DNA from: Streptomyces sp. NBC_01478
GTDB lineage: Bacteria > Actinomycetota > Actinomycetes > Streptomycetales > Streptomycetaceae
Assembly: GCF_036227225.1 (NCBI RefSeq)
Contig: NZ_CP109444.1
Coordinates: 9,963,501 to 10,027,500, forward strand
Length of the DNA: 64,000 nucleotides
Direction: 5' to 3'
The translations under genes were made by a program, and so were the position numbers. Within the stretch, counting starts at the first letter, position 1. Each line of letters begins with the position of its first letter. This document shows positions 2,911 to 29,203 of this stretch, piece after piece. The notes under the pieces are model-generated. The model worked only from the letters and a program-made list of their open reading frames with translations, did not search any database and was not told where the DNA came from.

Positions 2911-4692
2911 CTAGGACGACACCAGCACCAGGGACCACAGCTGAGAGGTGGCGCCGGTGTACGCCTGCTGGACGATCTGTGCGCCGTCGGTGGTGGCTGC
3001 TCCGGAAACGGTGAGGGCGAGACCCGAGTTGCGGTTCACCAGCTTGTAGTTGGAGCCTACGGCGACCACCTGCCACTGCTGGTCGTTGCCGCTGTTCTGC
3101 ACCCACTGCACGGCGCTCGCGCCGCTGGCCGTGCTGGCCGCCAGGATGCCGAGGGCTCGGCCGCTGTTCTTGTCGAGCAGCGTGCTGTATCCGCTGCCGA
3201 CATCCGTGACGTGCCACAACTGGTCGGCCGACCCGTTGTCGGTCCACTGCACGACGTTCTGCCCGTCGTGCAGGTCCGCGGCGTACACGCCGAGGGCCTT
3301 ACCGCTGTTGGCGTTGACGAGCTTGTAGTACGCGCCGGTGGAGTTTCCGAAGTCGATGTCCGCGTAGGAGATCGTGGTTGTCCCGCCGACGATCTCGACT
3401 CGGCCCGTGTTGGGGATGTAGGTGAGGCTGCGGCTGTAGGAGGACGCCATCGTCGTGTGCTGCTGCGTCCACGCGCCGGTGCTGCTTCCGCTGGCGTTCG
3501 TCCAGACGTCCCCGCTGCCCGCGGCGTTGAAGAGGATCCGCCCGTTCGACATGCGCATGAGCACCGGGCTGCCTCCACGGGACAAGGCGCTGGAGCCCGA
3601 CGTCACCGAGAGCGAGGTGACGCCGGTGCCCGCGGTACCGCCCACCGAATAGAAGTGCAGCGGATCGCTGGCGATCTTGTAGCGGACGTTGTCACCGCCA
3701 CCCCAGTATTCGTAGGTCATCATCCACTTGCCGTCGCTGGTCTGGACGACATTGGTCATGCCGGGGCGGCCGCCGCCGATCTCGCTGTAACCGGACGAAT
3801 TGGTGACCGTCGTTCCGGAGACATCGACAACCGCGCTGCTCCACGACGAGCTGACGCCGTCCCATGTCCGGTGCGCAAGGATCTGTGTGGCGGGATCCGG
3901 AGTTGTGCTGTTGTTCGGATCGAGTGTCGGAACGCCCGTCGACGAGTCGTAACCGGTGTAGTCGTTCTCGTCGGAGTAGTAGGCGACGAGCTGGTTGTTG
4001 TAGACCATCAGGTACGGCTCCCAGACGGGGTCGTTCTGGTGGTTGGTGTTCTCGGTGGCAGGGTAGTTCGCGCCGTTGGACCAGCTGCCCGTCGTGATGA
4101 CGTTGACGACATTCCACGTCGCGCCCGAGTCGGTGCTTGAGTAGAGCGCGATCGCCGTGTTGCTGCGGTCGCCGTCGTGCGTCGGCGTGTAGCTGGAGTT
4201 GGTTGCCTTCTGGTCGAGGTAGTTGTAGTCGTCGCCCGATACGACGGTGGCCATCAGCAGTGTGCCGGATGCGAGATTTCCGACTGCCTGGGGCAGCACG
4301 TACAGATACGGGTTGGTCCAGTTACTGACGTACGAGGAGTACGCGGGGTTCGACGACGCGTACGCCGGCGCCTTGACGTCTGACAGGTGTTGCCAGGTCG
4401 TGCCGTTGTCGTCGCTCTTGTACAACGGCATTGTCTGGCCGTCGGCCGAACCCGAGGCGGCTACCGTCGACTTCTCGAATGCCGCGACGAGTCGTCCACT
4501 CGGCAGCACGGCCGTTTTCGGGTACAGCGCGCAGTTGTTGGTGGCCTTCGTGCAGGATGAGTTGCTCGGGAGCTGGTAGAGGGTGGCGGGTGTCGGTGTG
4601 GACGCCTGCGCGGGCATCGCGAAGGTCCACAGCGTCGCGGCTATGGCCAGAACGAGGGTCAAAGCTCTACGCGGATGTCTTGTGCCTTTCAT
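2911..4692 (-). CDS. Secreted sialidase-fold (BNR) glycoside hydrolase with ricin-type CBM
   Basis: A 593-residue protein. The start is the ATG at 4692, with GGGAGGAAAG just upstream; the frame extends further upstream without a ribosome site. Residues 1-35 form a signal peptide (KGTRHPRR, hydrophobic core, AMPAQAS). The middle 400 residues contain Asp-box-like DDNGTTW and TDSGATW repeats and an RPGMTNV segment, typical of six-bladed sialidase/exo-arabinanase (GH33/GH93-like) propellers. The last ~130 residues carry three QxW-type repeats (DQLWHV, DQQWQV, SQLWSL) of a ricin-B/CBM13 module. It should bind and trim extracellular polysaccharide. Substrate is uncertain: exo-alpha-1,5-arabinanase or sialidase activity are both possible. 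Confidence 0.8.
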   Translation of the reverse strand: MKGTRHPRRALTLVLAIAATLWTFAMPAQASTPTPATLYQLPSNSSCTKATNNCALYPKTAVLPSGRLVAAFEKSTVAASGSADGQTMPLYKSDDNGTTWQHLSDVKAPAYASSNPAYSSYVSNWTNPYLYVLPQAVGNLASGTLLMATVVSGDDYNYLDQKATNSSYTPTHDGDRSNTAIALYSSTDSGATWNVVNVITTGSWSNGANYPATENTNHQNDPVWEPYLMVYNNQLVAYYSDENDYTGYDSSTGVPTLDPNNSTTPDPATQILAHRTWDGVSSSWSSAVVDVSGTTVTNSSGYSEIGGGRPGMTNVVQTSDGKWMMTYEYWGGGDNVRYKIASDPLHFYSVGGTAGTGVTSLSVTSGSSALSRGGSPVLMRMSNGRILFNAAGSGDVWTNASGSSTGAWTQQHTTMASSYSRSLTYIPNTGRVEIVGGTTTISYADIDFGNSTGAYYKLVNANSGKALGVYAADLHDGQNVVQWTDNGSADQLWHVTDVGSGYSTLLDKNSGRALGILAASTASGASAVQWVQNSGNDQQWQVVAVGSNYKLVNRNSGLALTVSGAATTDGAQIVQQAYTGATSQLWSLVLVSS

Positions 4693-5189
4693 CTTTCCTC
4701 CCGAAAAGATAGACAAGATCGGATCTTGGAGTCCGGAGCGGGCCGGGATCCGTATGCCGGCGGCCGGTGGTTTCTCTCCGACTTGGCGGTACCGAGGCGG
4801 CGGCGGGTTTGTCTTCGCCCGGCCATTTGGAGCGTCTCGCCCACGCCGCGGCAAGGGGATGCCATCGTTCGAGTCCCGGACTGAGCCTGTGAATCGGTGC
4901 AGTTGAGTCGAGCCCTGGGGCTTTCGTGGTTGGCGAGTGGGCGCATTCACGGCTTATGGCATACGAGCGCGTCCACTGCTCTGCTGTGTTCGCTCGTCGC
5001 GCCCGATTCCGTCGAGGACACGCGATGCGTGAAAGCTGAAGGGAGTTGAACTATCTGTCTGCGGCAGATGTTCGCAGAGGAAGGCAGCGTTGCGGTTGCC
5101 TCAAGCGTTGACGGTGGCAGGGGAATCGCTGATGTCCCGTCGCTTTCGGTACTTCGCAGATGGCGCGGACCGGATTGGTGGAGGTCCGT

Positions 5190-5270
5190 TCAAAAGAGGC
5201 CGGCAGCGTGCCGTTCCGGCTGCGGTAGTAACGCAGTTCGGATGCCTTCGTGCCATCGCGAACAAGGCAA
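5190..5270 (-). CDS. Possible 26-residue small ORF or leader peptide
   Basis: On the minus strand GGAGGTGA (5276-5283), a full match to the anti-Shine-Dalgarno, is followed after 5 nt by a TTG at 5270. The frame then runs 26 codons to TGA at 5190-5192. The product is basic and of no known family. The ribosome site is the best in this part of the window and has no other gene behind it; an overlapping frame from the ATG at 5259 is an alternative. It may be a relic leader of a lost gene. Confidence 0.25.
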   Translation of the reverse strand: MPCSRWHEGIRTALLPQPERHAAGLF

Positions 5271-5357
5271 CCTTTTCACCTCCTCTGAACTCCCCAACGG
5301 GGGAACGGGGATGGGTCAATTATTCGGGCGTGGGGCATCCGTGTCACCAGTGCGTTT

Positions 5358-5370
5358 CGAAAGTGTTTCG
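5358..5370. promoter_or_regulatory. CGAAAG-type palindrome, imperfect
   Basis: CGAAAGTGTTTCG differs at one position from the perfect palindrome CGAAAGnCTTTCG found upstream of GH95 (19693-19705) and of the sugar-binding protein (20922-20934). It sits 666 bp upstream of the secreted glycosidase start, with no clear -35/-10 at the spacing seen at the other sites. It may be a remnant or auxiliary operator. Confidence 0.35.
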
Positions 5371-5506
5371 CAGAGGAGCGGTTCGCTGTGTATTGACGTG
5401 TCGGCGCACACCTCGCCGTCCAGGGAGGTTTCGAAGTCTCGGTGATCACGTGAGTGTGGAGATCGCGACGGTAGGTCGATGGGTGGTCGGCCCGGTCCGT
5501 ATGCAA

Positions 5507-16225: not shown

Positions 16226-17266
16226 GTGACAGTTCGGGGCGGCACGCGCGGGGATGCGCAGTACGGTTTGCTCACCAGCATCGCCGGCGAGGCGGGAGTG
16301 TCGCTCAGCACCGTGTCGAAGGTCGTGCACCGGCGTGCCGACGTCGGAGCGGCGACGCGAGCCCGGGTCGAGGACCTGCTGACACGCCACGGGTATGTCC
16401 GCCCGGGAGAACCCGATCCCGCGGCGTCGCGTCAGATCATCGCGGTGTTCCGTGACCTGTCGGGGCCGTACACGCTGGAAGTCGTCCGCGGGATCGTGGA
16501 CGCGGCGGACGAACTGGGCCTGGACGTGGTGACCGGGACGACGGGTCACCGTTCGATCTCCCAGTGGCTCGAGGAGTGCGTGGCACTCGACGCGGCGGGC
16601 CTGATCATCGTGATCTCCATGCTGGCCGAGGAAGACCAGCGCCGGATCGTCGAGCGGCGGCTTCCCGTGGTGCTGATCGACCCGCTGAGCGCACCGACGC
16701 ACGACATTCCGAGCATCGGCGTGACGAACTGGAGCGGGGCCAGGGAAGCGGTACAACACCTGTTGGGCCTCGGGCACACCCGGATCGGCATGGTCGCGGG
16801 CCGTTCGCACTCGCTGGCCGGGGCCGCGCGGCTGCACGGCTACCGGGCCGCCCTGGAGGAGGCGGCGATCGCGTACGACCCGGCGATCGTGCGCTCGACC
16901 GACTTCGACTTCGAAGAAGGGCTGCTCGCCAGCCTGCAGATCCTGCGCTCCGCTAGTCCACCCACCGCCGTCTTCGCGGCAAGTGACGCGCAGGCGCTCG
17001 GCGTCCTGGAAGCGGCCCGTCAGCACGGGTTCAGCGTTCCCGAGGACCTGGCGGTCATGTCCTTCGACGACACCCTTGTGGCGGCCATGGCCTGTCCGCC
17101 ACTGAGCGCGGTGCGCCAGCCGTTCGAGGAACTGGGCGCCGAGGCCACCAGGGTGCTCGTGCAACTCGCGGAGGGGCGACCGCCCGCGTCGTCCCGGATC
17201 GAGTTGGCGACGGAGCTCGTGCTGCGCACCTCGACGTCGGTGCGCAGGCGAGTCGACACACAGTGA
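16226..17266 (+). CDS. LacI-family regulator, copy 1
   Basis: 346 residues from the GTG at 16226 with an AGGCGAGG ribosome site. The N-terminal HTH (YGLLTSIAGEAGVSLSTVSK) and hinge helix (ATRARVEDLLTRHGYV) precede a periplasmic-binding-protein-like sensor domain (FRDLSGPYTLEVVRGIVDAA ... MSFDDTLVAAMACPPLSAVR). It is a close paralogue of the regulator at 19850-20884, with nearly identical recognition-helix context (SxSTVSKVVHRR versus SPATVSKVVHRR), so the two may share operators. It is convergent with the GH95 gene and probably controls the neighbouring glycan genes. Confidence 0.92.
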   Translation: MTVRGGTRGDAQYGLLTSIAGEAGVSLSTVSKVVHRRADVGAATRARVEDLLTRHGYVRPGEPDPAASRQIIAVFRDLSGPYTLEVVRGIVDAADELGLDVVTGTTGHRSISQWLEECVALDAAGLIIVISMLAEEDQRRIVERRLPVVLIDPLSAPTHDIPSIGVTNWSGAREAVQHLLGLGHTRIGMVAGRSHSLAGAARLHGYRAALEEAAIAYDPAIVRSTDFDFEEGLLASLQILRSASPPTAVFAASDAQALGVLEAARQHGFSVPEDLAVMSFDDTLVAAMACPPLSAVRQPFEELGAEATRVLVQLAEGRPPASSRIELATELVLRTSTSVRRRVDTQ

Positions 17267-17344: not shown

Positions 17345-19612
17345 TCAGGCGAGCGGGACGGTCACCGTGGTGGGGACGTTCGGCAGCAGGTGTACGGTCC
17401 GCCGCCGGTCCGAGCCGTCACGGCACACGAGGACGATGTCCCGCTCCAGTGGCGAGGTGAGAACCACCTTCGCGAGGCCCTCGGACACATCCCACGTCAG
17501 CTCGTCGACGCCGACCCCGGCGCGCGTGGCGAGGCCGCGCAGGCTGCCGGACCGCCACTCCGGGGGCCGGGCCGGCAGGAGTTCCACGATCCCGGGCCGG
17601 GAGTCGAGCAGCATCTCCACGACCACGGCCGGCAGACAGTGGGCGGCGTCCGCGTTGTAGATCTCCAGATCGGGGTTGTGCGAGGTCATCAGCGACCGGA
17701 AGACCATGTTGCGGCCCACGATCTTGAGGACGTTCTCCTTCGCCGTCCCACTGTCCTTGAGGCGTGCGGCGACCAGGGCGCGGTGCAGGCTGCCGTGCGC
17801 GGAGAGGTTCTCGTCACCCCGTCGCAGCAGGGCTTCGCGAGCCGCGGCGGCCAGGTCGGGGGTGTCGTCCGGGGTGATGTCGTGCAGCGGCCACACCGGG
17901 TAGAGGTGGCTGATGTGCCGATGGTCGTCGGCGGTCTCCAGTCCCGGCCACGCCCACTCGGCGAGCGCCCCCTGACTGTCGACGCGGTAGGGCGGCAGCC
18001 GCTCCGCCAGCGCGCGCCAGCGGCCGACCGCGGCCTGCTCGATGCCGAGGCGGGTGCAGACCTCGGCGGCGGTGGCGAGCGCGTGCCGGGCCGCGGCCAG
18101 GTCCATGGTCGCGTTCACCCCGGACATGCCCCGCCCGTCGCGAGGGCCGACCTCGGGGGAGTAGGAGGGGACCAGGACGACGTGTCCGTCTTCGTCCTCG
18201 CGGGTGAGGAAGTCCTCGAAGAAAACGGCGGCCTCGACAAGCCAGGGGGCGAGGGTGCGGGCGAGGAAGTCGTCGTCGCCGGTCGCCTGCCAGTACTCGT
18301 ACAGCGGGAACAGCAGCCAGTCCGCGCCGGCCAGCCACATGGTCCAGGGCCAGTCGTCATTCAGGTGGAAGAGCAGCCCGTGTTCGCCGTCCGTCCGGCT
18401 GGGGGCCAGGATCCCGCGGGTGCCGTAGATCGTGCGGGCGTTGGTGCGCCAGTCGTCGATCTGACCGTCGATCAAGTCGGCGTACGGCGCGATGAGTTCG
18501 GGCATGCCGGTGAGGACCGCCCCGGCCATCTGGAGGTTGATGTTGGCGTCGGTGGTGTAGTCGCCGGACCAGGCGGCGCCCCATTCGCCGAGCCACAGGC
18601 CGGTCAGCCGGGGCGGCAGTACCCCGCTGGAGCTGAGCAGCAGGTAGCGGCCGGAGTGGAACAGCGCCTCGATCAGCGCGCCGTCCAGCGTCTTGGTGTC
18701 GGCACGGGCGATCAGCTCGCCCACGGGGAGGTCGCGGTCGCTGTCGGGCACACCCAGGTCGAGTTCGGCGCGGCCGTAGAGTTCGCCGTGGACGGGCGCA
18801 TGCCGGGAGAGCAACTCGTCGTATGCAGCGGGCAGTTCGGCCAGGGCCGCGCGGAGCGCGTCGATGCGGGGGAGAGGCGCCGACCGGTCCATCCGGGTCA
18901 GCAGAACGACGCGCGTCGCTCCTTCGACACGGACCGTGTCCCCTTCCGCCGCGACCCGGCCGCCCGTGACGACGGCCCGGGTCACGCCGGTGAATCCCGC
19001 CGCACCGGGACCGGGCGGATACTCGCCCACGACGGCGAGTGACGCCTCGCCGGCCCCGGTGACCTCGGCGGACGTCGTGAAGGTGACCTCGGCGGGGCGG
19101 CCCGACAGCTCTCCGGACAGTCGTAGGGCCAGGTCGAGCCGCGGACCGGTGATCTCGACGACCGCGACGGCGTCGGTGCGCGACACGAACGCACGCCGTC
19201 CCCACTCCCGTTCCCCGTCGGACCAGCTGACCCGCACCTCGCCCGTGGCGAAGTCGGTGACCCGGCGGTAGTGCTCGACAGGGCCGTCCCCGGCGGTCGT
19301 GTCCACATGAAGCATGTGCCCGGGGTGGAAGGACTGTGTCCAGGCCATCCCCCTGCCGTCGGAGAACTCGCGCTGTGCCCGCTCCCGTTCCCCGGCGAGG
19401 GCCAGGTCGCGAACCTGTTCAAGACGGTCGGCGACGGCCGGCGGACGCATCCCGAGGGACTCGTTGGGCAGCACGTAACGGTGGTGGTTGTGGACGATCC
19501 GCTCCCGGTGGGGGTGCCCGAACACCATGATTCCGTACTCGCCGTTCCCGGAGAGGAACGCGTCCTCCCAGCGGTCGGCGGGTTGTGTGTCGTGGATGCT
19601 GTGCACCGGCAT
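17345..19612 (-). CDS. GH95-family alpha-L-fucosidase/alpha-L-galactosidase
   Basis: 755 residues, the usual size of the GH95 catalytic unit without carbohydrate-binding modules. The N-terminus DRWEDAFLSGNGEYGIMVFG starts the super-beta-sandwich. The (alpha/alpha)6 core carries LWLGEWGAAWSGDYTTDANI followed by NLQM, and the ending has LLPARPPEWRSGSLRGLATR. No signal peptide is visible, so it should act inside the cell on imported oligosaccharides. It would release L-fucose or L-galactose, which feeds the fuconate dehydratase pathway at the left edge of the window. A CGAAAG palindrome lies in its promoter. Exact linkage specificity is not readable. Confidence 0.88.
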   Translation of the reverse strand: MPVHSIHDTQPADRWEDAFLSGNGEYGIMVFGHPHRERIVHNHHRYVLPNESLGMRPPAVADRLEQVRDLALAGERERAQREFSDGRGMAWTQSFHPGHMLHVDTTAGDGPVEHYRRVTDFATGEVRVSWSDGEREWGRRAFVSRTDAVAVVEITGPRLDLALRLSGELSGRPAEVTFTTSAEVTGAGEASLAVVGEYPPGPGAAGFTGVTRAVVTGGRVAAEGDTVRVEGATRVVLLTRMDRSAPLPRIDALRAALAELPAAYDELLSRHAPVHGELYGRAELDLGVPDSDRDLPVGELIARADTKTLDGALIEALFHSGRYLLLSSSGVLPPRLTGLWLGEWGAAWSGDYTTDANINLQMAGAVLTGMPELIAPYADLIDGQIDDWRTNARTIYGTRGILAPSRTDGEHGLLFHLNDDWPWTMWLAGADWLLFPLYEYWQATGDDDFLARTLAPWLVEAAVFFEDFLTREDEDGHVVLVPSYSPEVGPRDGRGMSGVNATMDLAAARHALATAAEVCTRLGIEQAAVGRWRALAERLPPYRVDSQGALAEWAWPGLETADDHRHISHLYPVWPLHDITPDDTPDLAAAAREALLRRGDENLSAHGSLHRALVAARLKDSGTAKENVLKIVGRNMVFRSLMTSHNPDLEIYNADAAHCLPAVVVEMLLDSRPGIVELLPARPPEWRSGSLRGLATRAGVGVDELTWDVSEGLAKVVLTSPLERDIVLVCRDGSDRRRTVHLLPNVPTTVTVPLA

Positions 19613-19667
19613 TCCCGGCCTCCCGGAAGTAACGTGCCTGAGCGGCTCGAACAGGCTGCGGGGGAGC

Positions 19668-19706
19668 CTACAAGAGGTGGCCGATCGGGTCGCGAAAGAC
19701 TTTCGC
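19668..19706 (-). promoter_or_regulatory. GH95 promoter with CGAAAG palindromic operator
   Basis: The palindrome GCGAAAGACTTTCGC at 19692-19706 has 15 positions and is perfect around its centre. On the minus strand a TTGTAG -35-like hexamer (19668-19673) follows after 19 nt, the same arrangement as in front of both sugar-binding protein genes. The -10 is weak. The site lies between GH95 and the divergent second LacI gene and could regulate both. Confidence 0.65.
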
Positions 19707-19849
19707 AGCCCTTGAGTTCCCGCGTTTCCGCAGGTGTACGGCGCTTTGGGCGCTCCGGCCCGGCCTGTCGTGATCGAGCCGGCGTGTACGTTCGCTCAGC
19801 ACGCGATCAGAACAGGCCAACGGACGGGGTACGGGAGGTCCACACCGCA

Positions 19850-20884
19850 GTGACGGGCCCAACCAGCTCCCGCCGGAACGCCCAGTACGGGCTTCTCGCC
19901 TCGATAGCCGACGAGGTCGGCGTCTCGCCGGCGACCGTGTCCAAGGTCGTCCACAGGCGGCGTGACGTGTCCCAGGCGACACGCGCTCGCATCGAGGCGC
20001 TGCTGGCCGAACGTGGGTTTGTCCGTACGTGGGAGGCCGAAGCCCGTCGGCGACGGCAGATCCTTGCGGTGTTCCGCGACCTGGCGGGACCGTACACCCT
20101 GGAAGTGGTCCGCGGCATCGTGGACTCGGCGGCCGAGATCGGTGTCCACACGACCGTCGGCACGACGAGTCGGCGCTCCGTCGCACAGTGGTTGGAGGAG
20201 TCTCAGAAGCTGGACGCCCTCGGGGTCGTCATCGTCATCTCCACTCTCGTCGAGCGGGACGAGCGCCGGATCCTGGAGCAGCGGATTCCGGTGGTGCTCG
20301 TCGATCCCCTGAACGCGCCGTCCGGGGACATCCCCAGTGTCGGGGTGGCGAACTGGCACGGCGCGACGACCGCTGTCCAGTACCTGATCGACCTCGGACA
20401 CCGCCGCATCGGCATGCTGGCCGGCCGGTCGCACTCGCTGGCCGGGTCCGCGCGCCTGCACGGCTACCGGGCCGCCCTGACGGAGGCCGGGATCCCTTTC
20501 GACGCCACGCTCGTGCGCTCGACGGACTTCGACTACGGCGAGGCACTGCGCGCCGCCCGCAGTGTGCTGGAGCGGGACGAGAGACCAACCGCTCTCTTCG
20601 CCGCCAGTGACGTCCAGGCGCTCGGCGCGATGGAGGCCGCCCGGCAACTGGGCATCGCCGTACCGCGCGGGCTGTCGGTGATGTCGTTCGACGACACCCT
20701 CGTGGCCGCCATGGCCTCGCCGCCGCTGAGCGCGGTGAGGCAGCCGTTCAGGGAACTGGGCCAGGAGGCCACGCGCGTCCTCCTGAACCTCGCCGACGGC
20801 AGACCGCCCGCGACGACGCGCAGGGAACTCGCGACCGAACTCGTCGTGCGCATGTCCACGGCGCCGCCCGAAACCGGGAAATAG
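19850..20884 (+). CDS. LacI-family regulator, copy 2
   Basis: 344 residues from the GTG at 19850, with GGGAGGT 11 nt upstream. Its HTH (YGLLASIADEVGVSPATVSK), hinge and sensor domain parallel those of the regulator at 16226 nearly residue for residue, including the segments AGRSHSLAGSARLHGYRAAL and STDFDYGEAL. It is divergent from GH95 and directly upstream of the ABC importer. It is therefore the likely local regulator of the importer, and it probably recognises CGAAAGnCTTTCG. An in-frame upstream GTG near 19790 is a less likely start because it lacks a ribosome site. Confidence 0.92.
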   Translation: MTGPTSSRRNAQYGLLASIADEVGVSPATVSKVVHRRRDVSQATRARIEALLAERGFVRTWEAEARRRRQILAVFRDLAGPYTLEVVRGIVDSAAEIGVHTTVGTTSRRSVAQWLEESQKLDALGVVIVISTLVERDERRILEQRIPVVLVDPLNAPSGDIPSVGVANWHGATTAVQYLIDLGHRRIGMLAGRSHSLAGSARLHGYRAALTEAGIPFDATLVRSTDFDYGEALRAARSVLERDERPTALFAASDVQALGAMEAARQLGIAVPRGLSVMSFDDTLVAAMASPPLSAVRQPFRELGQEATRVLLNLADGRPPATTRRELATELVVRMSTAPPETGK

Positions 20885-20921
20885 GGACGAACCCGAGCCG
20901 GTTCCGCAAGCCCTCGGGTAG

Positions 20922-20983
20922 CGAAAGTCTTTCGGAAGTGATTTCGCTCCGATATTGCCGCGGCCGAATTGCGCCGCTTAACG
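20922..20983 (+). promoter_or_regulatory. Importer promoter with perfect CGAAAGTCTTTCG operator
   Basis: The palindrome CGAAAGTCTTTCG (20922-20934) is followed after 20 nt by TTGCCG (20955-20960), a 17-nt spacer and TTAACG (20978-20983). This leaves a long leader to the binding-protein start at 21154. The same order and spacing recur at 27697-27758, and the downstream bases CTCCGA and TTGCCGC are also conserved there. The palindrome sits upstream of the -35, where it could aid looping or activation. Confidence 0.7.
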
Positions 20984-21153
20984 TGACCGACGCCAGCTCA
21001 ACCGCAGGAGCAACGGAACCGCAACACTTGCGCAACAGCGCCTGACGGTCATGGCCATCGACCCAGATCCCTCAGTGCGGGCAGGCCCGGGACGGCCTGC
21101 CGGGTGCAGCGCACCCGCGAAGGGGATCCTGCCGACTCGAAAGGTGTTCAACG

Positions 21154-22437
21154 ATGAACAGTGTGTCCCGGAGATGGTTCCTCACCGCTACGGCGGCGAC
21201 CACGCTGAGCGTCACCGTGGCCGGCTGCGGTTCGTCGGGCAGCTCCACGTCCTCGCCCACGGGCAACGTCGACTTCTGGACGCTGCAGGACCCGACCAAC
21301 TCGGTCCAGAAGTCGGCGGTGGACACCTTCAACTCCGCCGGCAAGGGCAAGGTCAGCATGACCGTGATCGCCACCGACGGGTACAAGGACAAGCTGCGGA
21401 CCGCGATGGGCTCGGCCAAGATGCCCGGGGTGTTCTTCAGCTGGGGCGGCGGCAGCCTGAACGACTACGTCACGGCCGGGAAGCTGGTCACGCTGGACAC
21501 GGCCCTGGAGTCCCACTTCCTGCCGTCCGCCCTGGCCGCGGGCAAGGTCGGCGGCAAGCTGGTCGCCATCCCCTGCCGGGGCACCCAGCCGGTGTTCCTC
21601 TTCTACAACAAGAAGCTCTTCGCCGACGCGGGCGTTCAGCCGCCGACGACCTACGCCGAGCTGCAGAACCTGGTCAAGGTCTTCAAGGGCAAGGGGATCA
21701 CCCCCTTCGCGCTCGCCGGCAACGCCAGCTCCTCGTGGACCGAGCTGATGTGGGTCGAGTACCTCGTCGACCGCCTCGCGGGGCCGAAGCTGTTCGACAA
21801 GATCCAGGGCGGCGACTGGTCGCAGTGGAAGGACCCCGCCGTCCTCAAGACCGCGCAGATGATCAAGGAGCTGGTGGACAGCGGCGCGTTCGGCAAGAAG
21901 TTCGGATCGGTCAACTACGGCGCCGGCGGCACCTCCACACTGCTCAACAAGGGCAAGGCGGCGATGGTGCTGATGGGCTCGTGGGAGTACGCGACCCAGC
22001 TGGCCGAGGCCCCCGACTTCGCGAAGAACGGCCTGGGATACGTGGCCTTCCCCTCTGTGGTGGGGGGCAAGGGCGATGCCGCCAACGTGGTCGGCAACCC
22101 CACGAACTACCTTTCGGTGACCACTTCCGCCGCCAAGCAGACCGCGACGGACTTCCTGCAGACCACCTACAGCGACAGCTACGTGCAGGGGCTGGTCGAG
22201 AAGGGTGAGGTGCCGGTCACCTCCAACGCCGCGCAGTACCTCACCAAGGCGGCCGACCCGGCGTACGCCAAGTTCCAGTACGACCTGGTGCAGAAGGCCC
22301 CTTCCTTCACCCAGTCATGGGATCAGGCGCTCGGTCTCACCCTCGGCACGCCGCTGCTGACCGAGATCCAGAAGCTGTTCAACGGGCAGAGCTCGCCGGA
22401 GCAGTTCGTCAGCGCGGTTCTGGCGATCAAGAAGTAG
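21154..22437 (+). CDS. Sugar ABC transporter substrate-binding lipoprotein
   Basis: 427 residues. The twin-arginine signal (VSRRWFLTATAATT) ends in a lipobox VAGC, so the protein is probably Tat-exported and lipid-anchored at the outer face of the membrane. The mature part is a family-1 solute-binding protein (NVDFWTLQDPTN, PVFLFYNKKLF, AMVLMGSWEYA, NPTNYLSV). It is followed 14 bp later by two permease genes, forming a classic sugar importer without its own ATPase; such importers share an MsiK-type ATPase encoded elsewhere. A near-identical type of protein is encoded at 27923. The ligand is likely an oligosaccharide of the GH95/GH3 pathway. Confidence 0.92.
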   Translation: MNSVSRRWFLTATAATTLSVTVAGCGSSGSSTSSPTGNVDFWTLQDPTNSVQKSAVDTFNSAGKGKVSMTVIATDGYKDKLRTAMGSAKMPGVFFSWGGGSLNDYVTAGKLVTLDTALESHFLPSALAAGKVGGKLVAIPCRGTQPVFLFYNKKLFADAGVQPPTTYAELQNLVKVFKGKGITPFALAGNASSSWTELMWVEYLVDRLAGPKLFDKIQGGDWSQWKDPAVLKTAQMIKELVDSGAFGKKFGSVNYGAGGTSTLLNKGKAAMVLMGSWEYATQLAEAPDFAKNGLGYVAFPSVVGGKGDAANVVGNPTNYLSVTTSAAKQTATDFLQTTYSDSYVQGLVEKGEVPVTSNAAQYLTKAADPAYAKFQYDLVQKAPSFTQSWDQALGLTLGTPLLTEIQKLFNGQSSPEQFVSAVLAIKK

Positions 22438-22451
22438 GAAGGCGCGTCCAC

Positions 22452-23384
22452 GTGGTCTCCGCAACGACTTCGCGTCCCGTGCCTCAGCAACGGGTTCGTG
22501 ACCGGGCCGCTCCCCCCACCCTGGAGCGGCCCGGCGTGGCCTGGGCGGTTCCCGGGCTGCTGTTCTTCCTCGTCTTCGCCGTCGCGCCGATGGTGGGCGT
22601 GCTGTACCTCTCCTTCACGCACTGGGACGGCCTGAACGCACCGCAGTTCACCGGCACGGAGAACTGGTCGCGGTTCTTCGGCGACAGCCAGGTCTGGCAG
22701 TCCACCTCGGTCACGGGGGTCCTGCTGATCGGGAACATCGTGGTGCAGGCGCCGGTCAGCATCCTGCTGGGCGTCTGGGCGGCCGGTCCCCAGCGCAACC
22801 GGGCGATCCTGTCGGCGCTGTTCTTCCTGCCGCTGCTGCTGTCCACGGCGGCAACGGCCGTCATGTGGCGCCAGCTGCTGGACCCGAACTTCGGCCTGCC
22901 GTCCAAGTTCGAATGGCTCTTCGGTTCCAATCCGATGGGCACCCAGCAGGGCGCGATCGCCTGCCTGGTCCTCGTGACCACCTGGCAGTTCGTCCCCTTC
23001 CACAGCCTGCTCTACCAGGGCGCCGCCCGGGCCATCCCGCACACGCTCTACCAGGCGGCGGCGATCGACGGCGCGGGTCGGGTCCGGCAGTTCGTCCACA
23101 TCACGCTGCCGCAGCTGCGCAACACGATGATCACTTCGACCATCTTCATGGTCGTCGGCGGTCTCACGGCCTTCGACATCGTCCTGCTGCTGACCAACGG
23201 CGGCCCCGGCACCGACACGGCGATCCTGCCGTTCTCCATGTACCAGACGGCCTTCCGGACATACGACTACGGCTACGCGAGCGCCATCGCCAGCTTCCTG
23301 CTGCTGCTCGCCACCGCCGCTTCCGTTCTCCTCACGAAGCTCAGCGGGTACGACAAGATGACGAGCACGATGGAGGGGCTGTGA
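22452..23384 (+). CDS. Sugar ABC transporter permease (MalF/UgpA type)
   Basis: 310 residues from a GTG at 22452 with AGGAAGG upstream. Six hydrophobic segments are visible, starting VAWAVPGLLFFLVFAVAPMV, and the EAA loop for ATPase contact reads YQAAAIDGAGRVRQFVHITL. The downstream permease start overlaps its stop (GTGA), so the two are coupled and presumably form a heterodimer in the cytoplasmic membrane. Confidence 0.93.
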   Translation: MVSATTSRPVPQQRVRDRAAPPTLERPGVAWAVPGLLFFLVFAVAPMVGVLYLSFTHWDGLNAPQFTGTENWSRFFGDSQVWQSTSVTGVLLIGNIVVQAPVSILLGVWAAGPQRNRAILSALFFLPLLLSTAATAVMWRQLLDPNFGLPSKFEWLFGSNPMGTQQGAIACLVLVTTWQFVPFHSLLYQGAARAIPHTLYQAAAIDGAGRVRQFVHITLPQLRNTMITSTIFMVVGGLTAFDIVLLLTNGGPGTDTAILPFSMYQTAFRTYDYGYASAIASFLLLLATAASVLLTKLSGYDKMTSTMEGL

Positions 23385-24199
23385 GGACGCGCCCGAACTA
23401 CCTCGCCGGCGCCGCCGCCCTGGTCTGGCTGCTGATCATCGGCGTCCCGCTGTACGCGCTGGTGAACACGGCGGTACAGCCGCAGACGACGTACACCGAC
23501 AAGGGTCCCGTCTCGATCCCCGACACCGTGACCCTGGACAACTTCCGCACGGTTCTGGACAGCGGCTTCCTGCAGTACATCTGGAACACCGTCGTCGTCG
23601 CGGTGGCCACGGTCGCCATCGTGCTGGCGCTCGCGGTCCCGATCAGCTACGCCGTGGTGCGCGGGCGGGGCTGGCTGACCAAGGGCGTGTTCCGCCTGTT
23701 CCTGCTGGGCCTGGCGATCCCCTCGCAGGCGGTGATCATCCCGCTGTTCCTGATCATCAACAATCTCGGCTTCTACGACACCTTGTGGGGCATCATCCTG
23801 CCCACCGCCGCGTTCGCGCTGCCGGTGAGCGTGCTGGTCCTCAGCGGCGGGATGCGGGACATCTCCAACGAGCTGTACGAGGCCATGGCACTGGACGGCG
23901 CAAGCCCGGCACGGACCCTGCTGACGCTGGTCGTCCCGATGGCGAAGTCGGCCATCGCGACCACGTGCGTCTTCACGGCCCTGCAGGCGTGGAACGGCTT
24001 TCTGTTCCCGCTGATCATGACCCAGTCGAACGACAACAAGGTGGTGACGCTGGGCCTGTACAACTTCGTCTCCGAGTACGGGTCGAACGTGCCGGCCCTG
24101 CTGGCCGCGGTGCTGATGTCCGCGGTTCCCATCCTCGTCGTCTACCTCTTCGCCCGCCGCGCCCTCGTCGCGGGTCTGATGGGAGCCGGCGGCAAGTAA
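23381..24199 (+). CDS. Sugar ABC transporter permease (MalG/UgpE type)
   Basis: 272 residues from a GTG overlapping the previous stop, with GGAGGGG as ribosome site. It has six membrane segments; the EAA loop reads YEAMALDGASPARTLLTLVV. This is the second half of the importer channel. A hairpin follows at 24225-24250, before the GH3 gene. Confidence 0.93.
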   Translation: MRTRPNYLAGAAALVWLLIIGVPLYALVNTAVQPQTTYTDKGPVSIPDTVTLDNFRTVLDSGFLQYIWNTVVVAVATVAIVLALAVPISYAVVRGRGWLTKGVFRLFLLGLAIPSQAVIIPLFLIINNLGFYDTLWGIILPTAAFALPVSVLVLSGGMRDISNELYEAMALDGASPARTLLTLVVPMAKSAIATTCVFTALQAWNGFLFPLIMTQSNDNKVVTLGLYNFVSEYGSNVPALLAAVLMSAVPILVVYLFARRALVAGLMGAGGK

Positions 24200-24224
24200 C
24201 GGTGCCGCGTTCCCGCCGGGTGAG

Positions 24225-24250
24225 CCGAACCGGGACGCCGCCCCGTTCGG
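24225..24250. terminator. Hairpin between importer and GH3 gene
   Basis: CCGAACCGGG (24225-24234) pairs with CCCCGTTCGG (24241-24250) at 9 of 10 positions around a 6-nt loop. It may terminate or attenuate the importer transcript before the GH3 gene, which starts about 180 bp later. Confidence 0.45.
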
Positions 24251-24428
24251 GGCCCGGACGCCGAAGGCGCCGACTCCCCCGTGCGACGCGGTCCGGCGTG
24301 TCTGCCTCCCCATGACCGCCGGACCGGCGTCCGGGCCCACTCCTTTCCCGGTCGGCGGTGCTTCCTCGACCTCTTGGACCATTCGCGCGCTCTCGCGCAC
24401 CCCCCCCCGCAACAGAACGGATGAGACC

Positions 24429-26744
24429 TTGACGATCAGCGACGAGCGCCCGACGACCGGGCTGTGGAACGATCCCGCCCTGCCGGCGTCCGTTCGCGCG
24501 CGGGCCCTCCTCGACACCATGACCAGGGCCGAGAAGGTCGCACAGCTCGGCAGCACCTGGCCCGGCCACGACGAGTCCGGCGACGTGGCCCCGATGCAGG
24601 ACACCTTCCGCGGCGCCGAGAGCTTCGACGAAGCGATCGTCGACGGCCTCGGGCATCTGACCCGGGTGTTCGGTACGGCGCCGGTCGACCCGGAGGCGGG
24701 CCGCAAGCGCCTCGCGGAGTTCCAGGAGCGGGTGACGGCGGCGAACCGCTTCGGTATCCCGGCCATCGCGCACGAGGAGTGCCTCACCGGTTTCACCGCC
24801 TGGCAGGCCACGGTCTATCCCACACCGCTCGCCTGGGCGGCCACCTTCAACCCCGCCCTCGTCCACCGTATGGCCGCGGCCATCGGCTCGGACATGGCTG
24901 CCGTCGGCATCCACCAGGGACTGTCACCCGTCGTGGACGTCGTACGCGACTACCGCTGGGGCCGGGTGGAGGAGACCCTCGGCGAGGACCCCTACCTCGT
25001 TTCGGAACTCGGCCTGTCCTACGTGCAGGGGCTGCAGTCGGGCGGCGTCGTCGCCACGCTGAAGCACTTCGCCGGCTACTCCGCCTCCAGGGCCGCCCGC
25101 AACCACGCCCCCGCCGCCGTCGGTCCCCGTGAACTCGCCGACCTGATCCTCGTGCCGTTCGAGAAGGCCGTGGTGAAGGGCCGGGTCGGCTCGGTCATGA
25201 ACGCCTACAACGACATAGACGGCGTGCCCTGCGGCGCCAGCGAGGAACTCCTGACCCGGCTGCTGCGCGAAAGCTGGGGATTCGAGGGCACGGTGGTGTC
25301 CGACTACTGGGCGATCGCATTCCTCGCCTCCCTGCACCACGTGGCGGCCGACATCCCGGGCGCGGCACGTGCCGCGCTCCGGGCCGGGATCGACGTCGAA
25401 CTGCCCCACACCACCGCATACGGCGAGCCGCTCCTGGACGAAGGCGTGCCGGCGGATCTCGTCGACCGCGCCGTACTGCGGGTCCTGACCCAGAAGGCCG
25501 AACTCGGCCTGCTCGATCCCGACTGGAAGCCCGGGCAGTACACCGCTCCCGCGGACTTCGACTCGGCCCGAAACCGCTCCGTCGCCCGCGAGTTGGCGGA
25601 GGAGTCCGTCGTCCTGCTCGACAACTCCTCGGACCTGCTGCCGCTCGCCGGCGCGCGCTCCGTCGCCGTCATCGGTCCTGCGGCCGACGACGTCCGGTGC
25701 CTGTTCGGCTGCTACTCGTTCCCCAACCACGTACTGCCCCACCACCCCGACACCCCCCTGGGCGTCGAGGCGCCCACGGTGCTCGACGCCTTCCGGCGCG
25801 AGTTCCCCGACGCCGAGGTCCGCCACGAGACCGGTTGCCAGGTCATTGGGGACGACCGTAGCGGCATAGCCGCCGCGGTGGCTGCCGCCGCCGCGGCCGA
25901 CGTGACGGTCCTCGTCGTCGGTGACCGCTCCGGGTTGTTCGGACACGGTTCCTCCGGCGAGGGCTGCGACGTCAGCGTGCTGACACTTCCCGGAGTCCAG
26001 GACGAACTGGTGGAGGCCGTCCTCGACGCGGCGAACCAAGCCGTCCTCGTCGTCCTCTCGGGCCGTCCGTACGCCATCGGCCGGCATGCCCGGCGGGCGG
26101 GCGCCACTGTCCAGGCATTCTTCCCCGGCGAGGAAGGGGCGGCGGCGGTCGCCGGTGTCCTCTCGGGCCGGATCAACCCCTCCGGGCGCCTTCCGGTCCA
26201 GATCCCGGGCGACGAGGCGGGCCAGCCGGGCACCTACCTGGCGCCACCGCTCGCCCTCAAGAGCGACGGCGTGAGCAACATCGACCCCACACCCGCGTTC
26301 CCGTTCGGACACGGTCTGTCGTACACGACCTTCGAGATCGAGAGCGCGTCCGTCGACGAAGCCGTCGTGTCCGTCGACGCGACGATCACGTTGCGGGCCA
26401 GGGTCTCCAACACCGGTGAGCGCGCGGGCACTTGCGTCCCCCAGCTCTACCTCACCGACCCGGTCGCCTCGGTCACCCGCCCGGTCCGCCAGCTCATCGC
26501 GTTCACCCGCGTCGACCTCGCCGCCGGTGAGACCCGTGTCGTCGAGTTCGAGGTCCACACGGACATGGCCGCCTTCACCGGGAGAGACCTTCGCCGACGC
26601 GTCGAACCCGGCGACCTCACGCTCACCGTCGCCCGGTCGGCGGGCGACCGCGGCATTCCCGTCCAGGTGACCCTGCAAGGAGACGAGCGCATCGTCGACA
26701 GCACCCGCACCATGACCGCCCCCGTCAGGGTGCTCCCGGGCTGA
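24429..26744 (+). CDS. GH3-family beta-glucosidase/beta-xylosidase
   Basis: 771 residues if started at the TTG at 24429, which follows GGATGAGACC. The open frame reaches back to an ATG at 24312, but that stretch lacks a ribosome site and similarity. The N-terminal TIM-barrel has LKHFAGY (about 211-217) and the nucleophile Asp292 in GTVVSDYWAI. The alpha/beta sandwich and a C-terminal fibronectin-III-like domain (FGHGLSYTTFEI ... LIAFTRVDLAAGETRVVEF) complete the standard three-domain form. There is no signal peptide, so it cleaves imported beta-oligosaccharides from the non-reducing end. It lies in the same direction as the importer and probably belongs to its regulon. Confidence 0.9.
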   Translation: MTISDERPTTGLWNDPALPASVRARALLDTMTRAEKVAQLGSTWPGHDESGDVAPMQDTFRGAESFDEAIVDGLGHLTRVFGTAPVDPEAGRKRLAEFQERVTAANRFGIPAIAHEECLTGFTAWQATVYPTPLAWAATFNPALVHRMAAAIGSDMAAVGIHQGLSPVVDVVRDYRWGRVEETLGEDPYLVSELGLSYVQGLQSGGVVATLKHFAGYSASRAARNHAPAAVGPRELADLILVPFEKAVVKGRVGSVMNAYNDIDGVPCGASEELLTRLLRESWGFEGTVVSDYWAIAFLASLHHVAADIPGAARAALRAGIDVELPHTTAYGEPLLDEGVPADLVDRAVLRVLTQKAELGLLDPDWKPGQYTAPADFDSARNRSVARELAEESVVLLDNSSDLLPLAGARSVAVIGPAADDVRCLFGCYSFPNHVLPHHPDTPLGVEAPTVLDAFRREFPDAEVRHETGCQVIGDDRSGIAAAVAAAAAADVTVLVVGDRSGLFGHGSSGEGCDVSVLTLPGVQDELVEAVLDAANQAVLVVLSGRPYAIGRHARRAGATVQAFFPGEEGAAAVAGVLSGRINPSGRLPVQIPGDEAGQPGTYLAPPLALKSDGVSNIDPTPAFPFGHGLSYTTFEIESASVDEAVVSVDATITLRARVSNTGERAGTCVPQLYLTDPVASVTRPVRQLIAFTRVDLAAGETRVVEFEVHTDMAAFTGRDLRRRVEPGDLTLTVARSAGDRGIPVQVTLQGDERIVDSTRTMTAPVRVLPG

Positions 26745-26762
26745 CCTCGGGTACTCCGTCGG

Positions 26763-26801
26763 CCAGGAGGCTCCCCGTGTCAGGTGCGGGGAGCCTCCTG
26801 G
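26763..26801. terminator. Strong hairpin terminator after GH3
   Basis: A perfect 15-bp stem, CCAGGAGGCTCCCCG (26763-26777) with its complement at 26787-26801, around a 9-nt loop, 19 bp after the GH3 stop. The left end of an IS element starts immediately after the second arm, so the IS inserted at or next to the terminator. Confidence 0.85.
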
Positions 26802-26802
26802 A

Positions 26803-27665
26803 GGGCGTCTGGAAAGCCTGTCAGTGGGCTGATCTTTCGAGGCGGCGCACGAGGAGCATGGTCATGGAGAGGTGGACGGCGTTCTCCGAGCAGACGCGCA
26901 GGTACTCGTAGTCCTTCGACAGGCGGCGGCACCGTCCCAGCCAGGCGAATGTCCGCTCCACCACCCAATGCCGCTCGACCACCGAGAAGAGGGGCACTGC
27001 CGGTGGTGGTGCCCCTCTTTCGCCCAGGTCGAGCGGAATCCTCCGTCGCGGCGCTGCACGACTTCCACGGTGATGCCGGTGGCTTCCCGGGCCCAGGCGC
27101 GGAGGCCGGCGCCGCGGTAGCCCTGGTCCGCTCCCACGTGCCGAAGGCGCGGAGAGGCATCAGCGGCCCGGGAGAACAGCACCACGGCACCATCGCGACC
27201 GCCGACGCCGGTCGGGCTCACGCAGACCACCAAAGCAGTGCCACAGGTGTCGACGAGCAGGTGACGCTTGATGCCGCGGGCCTTCTTGCCGCCGTCGTAT
27301 CCATGCAGGCCACCGCGTTCGCCGGCCCGGACACTCCGGCTGTCCACGATGGCGGCGCCGGGAGTGGGATCACGGCCGAACTGCACCCGCTCGCGTTCGC
27401 GCAGCGCCGTCAACATCCGCTCCCACACGCCTTCTTGCTGCCACTGCCGCCGTGGCAGACCGTCTGTCACGGCGGCAGGTCGTGCGCAGCAGTCTCCAGG
27501 CACGGCCGGCCCGCAGCCGGTACGCCGGCGCGTCGAGGATCTCCCACTCCGGATCAGAAAGATCCGTCGAGTAACGGGAACGCAGCCCGCACACCCCAGC
27601 TCCCGAAAGTGCGACGCCACCCCGCTACCAGGCAACTTGTCCGCGGACAGGCTTTTCAGACGCCC
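26803..27665 (-). mobile_element. Degenerate IS5-type insertion sequence, about 863 bp
   Basis: The terminal inverted repeats are GGGCGTCTGGAAAGCCTGTC (26803-26822) and, read on the minus strand from 27665, GGGCGTCTGAAAAGCCTGTC (27646-27665): 19 of 20 identical. Between them lies one transposase gene on the minus strand, broken by frameshifts. No clear target duplication flanks the ends (GGA on the left, TGT on the right), so one side may have been rearranged after insertion. The size and transposase motifs fit the IS5 superfamily. Confidence 0.85.
26821..27594 (-). pseudogene. Frameshifted IS5-family DDE transposase
   Basis: The reading starts at about 27594 with RYSTDLSDPEWEILDAP, the usual N-terminus of this family. 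The next ~60 residues are shortened. After a frame change it continues with AIVDSRSVRAGERGGLHGYD, then GIKRHLLVDTCG and [10 protein letters not shown] further frame change is needed for the C-terminus [40 protein letters not shown] and a TGA at 26821-26823. DDE positions can be placed (D in VDS, D in GADQGYRG, E in VVERT), but at least two frameshifts and a deletion make it non-functional. Confidence 0.85.
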
Positions 27666-27696
27666 TGTGGCTCGAATTCCACAAATCGTCAAATCA

Positions 27697-27758
27697 CGAA
27701 AACCTTTCGCGATCGACGCCCTCCGACTGTTGCCGCAGCTAAATGCCGATGTTTAGCC
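27697..27758 (+). promoter_or_regulatory. Promoter of the second binding-protein gene with CGAAAG-type operator
   Basis: CGAAAACCTTTCG (27697-27709), one mismatch from the palindrome, is followed after 20 nt by TTGCCG (27730-27735). A -10-like TTTAGC/TTAGCC comes at 27752-27758. The layout and several bases copy the promoter at 20922-20983, so this promoter is a homologue of the first importer's. It lies just outside the right end of the dead IS. Confidence 0.6.
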
Positions 27759-27922
27759 TGGAGTTGGCTGGCTTGGCCTCGGCTGCGATGACGCGGGCGG
27801 TTCGCGAGTCCCCCGGCATGTCGAGCCGTCGCCTTCCCCCACAGCAATGCTCTGCAGGCCCTTAAGGACCCGCAGAGTGAAGTGCGTCCCCACGCGGATG
27901 CTGTCGACTCGGAAGGTGTTCA

Positions 27923-29203
27923 ATGAACAGAGGCTCCCGAAGGTGGTTCCTCACCGCTGCTGCTGCCGCGACTGGCCTCTCCGCGGCTGGTTGCGGCTCG
28001 TTCGCCAGTGATGCGTCTAACGGAATTGGATCTACGGATTTCTGGACGCTACAGGATCCTACGAACTCGGTTCAACAGGCGGCAGTGGATGCGTTCAACT
28101 CTACTGGCCATGGAAAGATATCGATGTCCGTGATCGCCGCAAACAAGTACAAGGACAAGTTGCGGAGAGCCATGGGATCTTCCAAGATGCCGGGATTGTT
28201 CTTCAGTTGGGGTGGCGGCGACCTTGCCTATTATGACAAGGCCGGAAAGCTGGAAGAGCTCGACAATTTCTTGGAGATCTACTTCCTGTCTTCTGCACTC
28301 GAAGCTGGAAAGGTCGGCGACAAGCTGCTTGGGCTGCCTTGCCGCGGCACTCAGCCGGTTTTTCTCTTCTACAACAAGAAGGTCTTCGCTGATGCGGCTG
28401 TGGAGCCGCCGAAGAGCTACACCAACCTGACGGACTTGGTGACGGTCTTCAAGGGCAAGGGAGTAACGCCTATTGCGCTCGCGGGTAATTCCAGCTCCTT
28501 GTGGACTGAGCTGATGTGGGTCGAGTACCTCGTTGAACGCCTAGCGAGGCCCTGGTTCTTCCAAGATATCCAGGACGGCCAGTGGTGGCTGTGGAGCGAC
28601 CCCGCAGTTCTCAAAGCTGCGCAGATGATTCGGGACCTGGTGGACAGCGGGGCGTTCGGGAAAAATTTCAGCTCGATCAATTACGGCGCCGGCGGCACCT
28701 CCACCATGCTGTCGAAGGGTGAGGCGGCGATGGTCCTCATGGGCTCGTGGGAATACGCTGTCCAACAGGGCCAGGATCCGGACTTCACCAAGAATGATCT
28801 CGGTTATGTTCCCTTCCCCACGGTCGAGGGTGGAAAGGGTGACCCAAACAATATCGTCGGCAATCCCACCAATTACATCTCCGTGACCTCCGGTGTGCCG
28901 GAGGAAACCGCCGCAGCGTTCCTCAAGACTACCTACAGCGACAGCTACGTCGAGGGACTGATAAAGAAAGGCGAAGTGCCAGTCACGACCAACGCCGAGA
29001 AAATGTTGGCCAAATCTCCTGACCCGGCATACGCGAAATTTCAGTATGATCTCGTGCGGAATGCAACGACCTTCACGCAGTCCTGGGATCAAGCGCTCGA
29101 CCTCAGGCTGGGGACCCTGATTCTCGCCGAAGTCCAGAAGTTGTTCAGCGGGCGGAGCGCGCCAAAGCAGTTTGCCCGTGCAATTCTACATCTAAAGAAA
29201 TAG
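27923..29203 (+). CDS. Orphan sugar-binding lipoprotein, paralogue of the one at 21154
   Basis: 426 residues. The Tat signal (GSRRWFLTAAAAAT) ends in lipobox SAAGC, and the fold-marking segments match the first copy (STDFWTLQDPTN, PVFLFYNKKVF, AMVLMGSWEYA, NPTNYISV, TTYSDSYVEGL). The frame is intact over its full length. Unlike its neighbours it uses many A- and T-ending codons (for example ATT, AAA, GAA), which points to acquisition from a lower-G+C relative or relaxed selection. No permeases follow: the next sequence is a truncated oxidoreductase. It may deliver sugars to the permeases at 22452-24199. Its leader (CTGTCGACTCGGAAGGTGTT) is similar to that of the first copy. Confidence 0.85.
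   Translation: MNRGSRRWFLTAAAAATGLSAAGCGSFASDASNGIGSTDFWTLQDPTNSVQQAAVDAFNSTGHGKISMSVIAANKYKDKLRRAMGSSKMPGLFFSWGGGDLAYYDKAGKLEELDNFLEIYFLSSALEAGKVGDKLLGLPCRGTQPVFLFYNKKVFADAAVEPPKSYTNLTDLVTVFKGKGVTPIALAGNSSSLWTELMWVEYLVERLARPWFFQDIQDGQWWLWSDPAVLKAAQMIRDLVDSGAFGKNFSSINYGAGGTSTMLSKGEAAMVLMGSWEYAVQQGQDPDFTKNDLGYVPFPTVEGGKGDPNNIVGNPTNYISVTSGVPEETAAAFLKTTYSDSYVEGLIKKGEVPVTTNAEKMLAKSPDPAYAKFQYDLVRNATTFTQSWDQALDLRLGTLILAEVQKLFSGRSAPKQFARAILHLKK

Follow-up and report, generated by a model that had tools for sequence, protein, structure and literature searches.

The window analysed here is a 64,000-nucleotide stretch of Streptomyces sp. NBC_01478 (positions 9,963,501-10,027,500 of the 12.1-Mb single-contig genome) that carries a cluster of sugar-utilisation genes in the order LacI1 - GH95 - LacI2 - binding protein - two permeases - GH3, accompanied by a second binding-protein gene and a gene for a secreted exo-arabinanase-like protein (Table 1). 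LacI2 combines a LacI helix-turn-helix domain with a periplasmic-binding-type sensor domain, and both LacI1 and LacI3, a third paralogue encoded 1 Mb from the window, align along its length. Within the genome LacI3 and LacI1 are the closest relatives of LacI2 (69 and 67% identity, respectively; next protein 44%). The first-pass annotation of the region, made from its letters alone, had called the two regulators in the window near-identical, which overstates the 67% found over 332 residues. Short palindromes lie in front of the genes, and we are highly confident that they are operators of LacI1-3, a conclusion held to be much likelier than any single mode of action. With moderate confidence we further propose that the cluster belongs to a BxlR-like LacI regulon for arabinan and xylan oligosaccharides, in which repression would be exerted from two operators in the style of the gal operon.

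The palindrome was found where the first-pass annotation had placed it, with exact copies in front of GH95 and the first binding-protein gene and a copy with one mismatch in front of the second. With up to two mismatches, the window holds six matches against 1.48 expected, a number reached in none of 100 shuffles. Exact CGAAAGnCTTTCG occurs at five places in the genome, of which the window holds two and the region around 10.995-10.998 Mb three; all five sit at the two loci encoding the three closest LacI paralogues and none elsewhere. Allowing one mismatch gives 12 places, including the window sites at 5358 and 27697, against nine for the reversed pattern, so that single one-mismatch matches mean little on their own. 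The LacI3 locus, which the first-pass annotation did not cover, adds four sites, three of them exact and one with a mismatch. The pattern CGAAAnnnTTTCG occurs at 14 places, eight of which are at LacI1-3 loci (reversed control, two), and a motif common across the genome was rejected on these counts. The genome-wide search proposed at first pass, for the palindrome followed by a TTG, returned six places when run with CGAAAnnnTTTCG and a gap of 18-23 nt, all at LacI-group loci (two of them on the far side of arabinanase-gene sites), and none with the reversed pattern. For comparison, 35 sequences totalling 634,711 bp were examined (the window, L013 and L030-L062, where L numbers denote loci). Palindromes accompany LacI genes across 33 related loci, and sites are kept at LacI loci in Streptomyces, Nonomuraea, Streptacidiphilus, Thermocatellispora and Saccharothrix. 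There are 92 CGAAAnnnTTTCG sites in the 35 sequences, with 24, 29 and 11 in three promoter classes and 28, mainly second sites, in none.

Table 1. Regulatory features and genes of the window (positions counted from its first letter)
Feature	Position	Strand	Remarks
O1 of first binding-protein gene, CGAAAGTCTTTCG, predicted centre about -63	20922..20934	+	exact; kept in 10/10 LacI2-type loci
Predicted -35 TTGCCG, 20 nt past O1	20955..20960	+	gap 20/21 in 12/12 LacI2-type promoters
Predicted -10 TAACGT, 18 nt past -35	20979..20984	+	TA[AG]C[GC]T at spacer 18 in 12/12
O2, CGCAACACTTGCG, 98 bp downstream of O1, about +36	21020..21032	+	CGCAAnnnTTGCG conserved
Operator of second binding-protein gene	27697..27709	+	one mismatch
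Predicted promoter TTGCCG-18-TAGCCT, second binding-protein gene	27730..27759	+	gap 20
Operator between GH95 and lacI2, CGAAAGTCTTTCG, predicted centre about -41 for GH95	19693..19705	-	exact
Predicted GH95 -10 TAGGCT, 22 nt past operator	19665..19670	-	overlaps TTGTAG
Operator of exo-arabinanase-like gene, CGAAACACTTTCG, predicted centre about -52	5358..5370	-	one mismatch
Predicted promoter GTGACA-17-AATAAT, 10 nt past operator	5319..5347	-	geometry matches 23 related promoters
Conserved TTGACG, 22 nt on far side of 5358 operator	5393..5398	+	TTGAC[GA] in 21/24 sites
LacI1	16226..17266	+	67% identical to LacI2, 84% to LacI3
LacI2	19850..20884	+	PF00356 and PF13377
GH95 glycoside hydrolase	17345..19612	-	PF22124
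Sugar-binding lipoprotein 1	21154..22437	+	PF01547; 3vxb E 1.9e-128
Two ABC permease genes	22317..24199 (open frames 22317-23384, 22865-24199; starts not set)	+	PF00528
GH3 beta-xylosidase/alpha-L-arabinosidase	24312..26744	+	NF052329, 1057.9 bits vs cut-off 1050
Sugar-binding lipoprotein 2	27923..29203	+	68% identical to lipoprotein 1
Secreted exo-arabinanase-like protein, ricin-type lectin domain	2911..4692 (start codon chosen by hand)	-	3a71 E 5.6e-18, PF14200

At the binding-protein genes, the upstream operator (O1) is followed after 20 or 21 nt by a TTG box in 29 of 30 promoters from five genera. All 12 LacI2-type promoters (the window's first and second genes, L030-L038 and L060) have TTGCCG, or TTGCAG in L036, at this distance. 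The LacI1/3-type loci have TTG at 21 nt in 13 of 13 cases, and the box recurs at L051, L059 and L045 (21 nt) and at L061 (20 nt). In the sole miss, L058, CAG replaces TTG in homologous sequence and no binding protein or GH3 was found at the locus, which is a decayed relic. Among the 29, L013 and L047 are apparent relics of deletions, and the binding-protein matches at L053 and L056 are split or partial. Six LacI1/3-type loci stand outside the count, five where the sequence ends too early (L041, L042, L054, L055 and L057) and one that shows no such gene (L062). For this class, the first-pass proposal of an operator at a fixed place upstream of a promoter-like sequence, off the predicted start, stands, as does a predicted TTG-type -35 (gap 20 nt at both window genes); GH95 and the arabinanase-like gene depart from the scheme. 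Starts were predicted at about 20991 for binding protein 1, 19658 for GH95 and 5312 for the arabinanase-like gene, at the usual distance from the -10.

The binding-protein genes also have a second operator sequence, O2, likewise new to this analysis, so that operators are found on both sides of the predicted promoter. CGCAAnnnTTGCG occurs 11 times in the 634,711 bp, always 97 or 98 bp from O1 of a first binding-protein gene and thus in 11 of the 12 LacI2-type promoters; seven of nine control patterns gave no match and two gave one. The 11 copies are homologous and lie in a leader that is itself conserved, and they represent conservation rather than 11 independent events. At LacI1/3-type loci O2 takes the form of the full CGAAAnnnTTTCG in 14 of 18 cases, at 100 bp (six loci), 101 bp (three) or 102 bp (five) from O1.

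The operator between GH95 and lacI2 is exact in nine of ten LacI2-type loci and has one mismatch in L032. The first-pass annotation had read a TTG 19 nt past it, on the minus strand, as a -35. Such a TTG is present at this gap in eight of 11 homologous GH95 promoters, and the sequence TAnnCT, resembling a -10, is found at a gap of 22 nt in all 11. TTGTAG was rejected as the GH95 -35, since the TTG is lost in three of 11 promoters and the spacing downstream varies, with TAnnCT kept throughout.

A third geometry is seen at the exo-arabinanase-like genes, whose site in the window was not part of the first-pass annotation. The 35 sequences, both strands included, hold 23 copies of GTGACA-17-NATACT, always 10 or 11 nt past an operator, and the window site brings the arabinanase-type promoters with GTGACA at this gap to 24. 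Exceptions with no GTGACA promoter are L059 (site 5373) and L061 (one-mismatch site 11315). At L032, L036 and L037, where arabinanase-like genes lie behind GH3, no site of their own was found. In nine arabinanase-type loci the first site is followed by another, 110-170 bp downstream. In the window, a predicted leader of about 620 nt (4692-5312) precedes the exo-arabinanase-like gene and is longer than that of most relatives. Measured from predicted starts, the operator centres lie at about -52/-53 for the arabinanase type, -63/-64 for the binding-protein genes and -41 for GH95, in steps of about one helical turn.

The simplest account of these geometries would be that each site alone blocks polymerase binding or passage with no contact or loop, the fixed spacing being a relic of ancestry. 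Promoters within each class are indeed all homologous, and the LacI2-type leader is conserved beyond its sites. Such plain repression is nevertheless improbable, as the arabinanase-type gap of 10/11 nt is constant when the distance from site to signature codon ranges from 251 to 359 bases (17 promoters listed), and the LacI2- and LacI1/3-type clusters, with binding proteins 41-45% identical at most loci, share the gap of 20/21 nt across differing intervening sequence. The spacing between operator and promoter itself thus probably matters for LacI-type control. From the conserved operator distance, the company of LacI genes and the restriction of the exact motif to their loci, we consider it fair to infer either looping or contact with RNA polymerase.

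On their far side, the arabinanase-type operators have a further conserved element that the first-pass annotation lacked. TTGAC[GA] is present in 21 of 24 sites, at 21 nt (11 sites) or 22 nt (ten), the background being 0.0003 per position and strand; L042 has TTGACT. Inspection by eye showed no conserved -10 behind it, as a divergent promoter would have, so that the TTG box may have a role beyond that of a -35, and the recurrence of TTG at about 21 nt on the far side of other family sites means that a TTG alone is no proof of a -35. The box some 21 nt from the palindrome, TTGnC, could accordingly be bound by a partner protein of LacI and match the -35 at the binding-protein genes only by coincidence, and at L048 no called gene pointing away lies close beside the far-side TTGAC. 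We regard this as very improbable, given that the binding-protein genes have a -10-like sequence at a constant 18 nt (by eye for the LacI1/3 type) and that coding constraint may play a part in nine of the 21 far-side boxes, which are located at a lacI 3' end.

In the model we favour, LacI1, LacI2 and LacI3 would govern a local regulon for the uptake and breakdown of arabinan- or xylan-derived oligosaccharides, their dimers binding CGAAAGnCTTTCG. At the binding-protein operon, dimers would occupy O1 (about -63) and the weaker O2 (about +36) on either side of the promoter; the arabinanase-like gene would be bound at about -52 and GH95 at about -41. Without a sugar signal the LacI proteins would repress, at the binding-protein operon in gal style by contact or by a short O1-O2 loop, and the sugar would release them. 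Several observations weigh against this model. The O1-O2 distances of 97-98 and 100-102 bp are up to 5 bp apart from one promoter type to the other and do not match the whole-turn distances of 103, 113 and 123 bp at which gal repression is best (PMC4693257). No O2 was found at the window's second binding-protein gene or at L045, L058, L059 and L061, although at L045 another site lies on the upstream side, at 96 bp. A TTGnC box some 21 nt from the palindrome also occurs with no visible promoter, and the counts come from orthologous promoters of common descent and so do not represent independent events.

Operators upstream at about -41, -52 and -63 would be suitably placed for an activator too. 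The LacI proteins could activate, or both activate and repress, by contacting RNA polymerase from one helix face, which would require each operator to be in phase with its promoter, and the three promoter classes do have predicted operator centres about 11 bp apart, as in classical activators, with no clear -35 seen under the GH95 operator and imperfect -35 boxes elsewhere (TTGCCG, GTGACA). Activating members of the LacI family are known, namely Cra (PMC4052901) and GalR at gal P2 (PMC4693257). We consider activation unlikely, if worth keeping in mind: repression accounts better for an O2 beyond the predicted start, BxlR, the relative that has been characterised, represses (PMC4743123), and the operator centres themselves rest on predicted starts. 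Similarly doubtful is a broader scheme in which LacI1-3 would contact RNA polymerase from the three phased positions (about -41, -52 and -63) with the help of a TTGnC-reading partner some 21 nt away, the half-site spacer (1 bp for BxlR, 2 bp for another paralogue and 3 bp here) would partly separate paralogues in one cell, and LacI1 and LacI2 would share one operator set for different sugars. The spacings of 10/11, 20/21 and 22 nt, each kept across many relatives, offer a compact natural test of whether LacI regulators that respond to sugars need to keep to one helix face with respect to the promoter.

The gene content suggests the substrate. The closest relatives of the encoded proteins (3vxb, which we take to be BxlE, the beta-xylosidase/alpha-L-arabinosidase model and 3a71) point to pentose oligosaccharides. 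LacI1, GH95, LacI2, the binding protein and GH3 occur together in seven of ten LacI2-type loci, in one of which (L036) GH95 is split in two; of the other three, L034 retains LacI1 only in part, GH95 is absent from L032 and LacI1 from L038. The LacI1/3-type loci hold a related cluster (binding proteins as above, GH3 52-59% identical to the window's in most) together with an exo-arabinanase-like gene. In the window (26862-29203), the second binding-protein gene stands behind a transposase-like frame. The near-identical L030 does not show it, although the L030 sequence extends far enough to include part of the gene, which may therefore be a recent gain or duplicate. Deletion of the transporter cluster seems to have left a scar at L013:11506-11973 (genome 10997506-10997973), where two exact operators 100 bp apart precede an open frame whose beginning, judged by eye, resembles that of a binding-protein lipoprotein and whose end encodes a GH3-type Fn3-like domain.

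Six CGAAAnnnTTTCG places lie outside the LacI1-3 loci. One is between predicted rhamnose-utilisation genes, two are copies of one sequence near both chromosome ends, two are by TetR-like and MFS-type frames and one is unassigned (gene names as read from the translations). Of the four one-mismatch places outside these loci, one is the rhamnose site, another falls within a predicted coding frame and the remaining two lie beyond any called frame. At the rhamnose site (L014:4827, genome 10506827), between predicted rhamnose isomerase and sugar ABC transporter genes, CGAAAGTTTTTCG is followed after 11 nt by TTGACG-18-TAACGT, and a LacI gene (34% identity to LacI2) lies about 6.7 kb beyond. The copies at 203906 and 11920892 share palindrome and flanks in opposite orientation, like terminal inverted repeats. 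A search of the open-access literature for six exact site sequences returned a C. elegans paper as the sole match.

Beyond the first-pass annotation, the spacer between the half-sites was found to differ among LacI paralogues. At 34 LacI1-3 loci, 88 of 89 palindromes have a 3-bp spacer (the other, 4 bp), as opposed to 1 bp in 19 of 20 palindromes from the 24 BxlR-type loci covered (sites in 19, none in five); six scrambled controls gave none. The BxlR-type search covered 24 + 6 loci out of 55 matches listed. The bxl-like cluster of this genome, adjoining a putative xylanase gene (read from translation), has CGAAACTTTCG beside its LacI gene, and another LacI paralogue in the genome has CGAAAAGTTTCG. 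A clade at 60% identity (six loci) has spacers of 3 bp (four sites), 2 bp (two) and 1 bp (one), the L063 clade (three loci) spacers of 2 bp (two sites) and 3 bp (one), and 12 of 15 loci in the L065 clade have no site. Because these clades are mixed or lack sites, a strict rule linking spacer to clade is weakened and the relation is a tendency. Half-site spacing may help related LacI proteins in one cell to avoid each other's sites; Streptomycetaceae average about 32 LacI-type regulators per genome (PMC4052901). An open-access literature search on half-site spacing gave no match.

Operators of the LacI family are mostly even palindromes of 16-22 nt with a central CG, odd ones making up 4% (PMC4052901). 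The present sites are likewise inverted repeats, but 13 bp long and odd, with GnC at the centre. The hinge leucine typical, though not defining, of LacI/GalR proteins also has no counterpart here, for in alignments with CcpA and 5ysz the stretch of LacI2 that corresponds to the CcpA hinge is shorter by about three residues and has no matching leucine; this stretch looks alike in LacI1, LacI2, LacI3 and the BxlR-like LacI.

The nearest functional parallel appears to be the regulon of BxlR, described as a xylobiose-responsive LacI-family repressor, in S. thermoviolaceus and S. lividans. BxlR uses CGAAACTTTCG, and reporter output rose when bxlR was deleted in S. lividans (PMC4743123); CGAANNTTTCG turned up in xylanase promoters in a pull-down study (PMC12772271). 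Both systems have half-sites of the form CGAAA...TTTCG (PMC4743123, PMC12772271) next to a LacI gene and a set of binding protein, two permeases and GH3, and the first binding protein of the window matches 3vxb. LacI2 is nevertheless a paralogue rather than an orthologue of BxlR, with 43% identity to the LacI of the bxl cluster and a 3-bp spacer in place of the single base of CGAAAnTTTCG beside BxlR-type genes, and here the operator lies upstream of the predicted promoter with a second operator downstream.

This arrangement resembles the gal operon of Escherichia coli, where GalR at OE (-60.5) represses by polymerase contact and, together with OI (+53.5), by a loop (PMC4693257). In both, a LacI-family regulator is paired with operators upstream of the core promoter and downstream of the start, promoter and start being predicted in the present case. 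The operators are 97-102 bp apart here compared with 113 bp in gal, O2 of the binding-protein genes lies in the leader rather than in the coding region, and the loop between O1 and O2 is a putative one.

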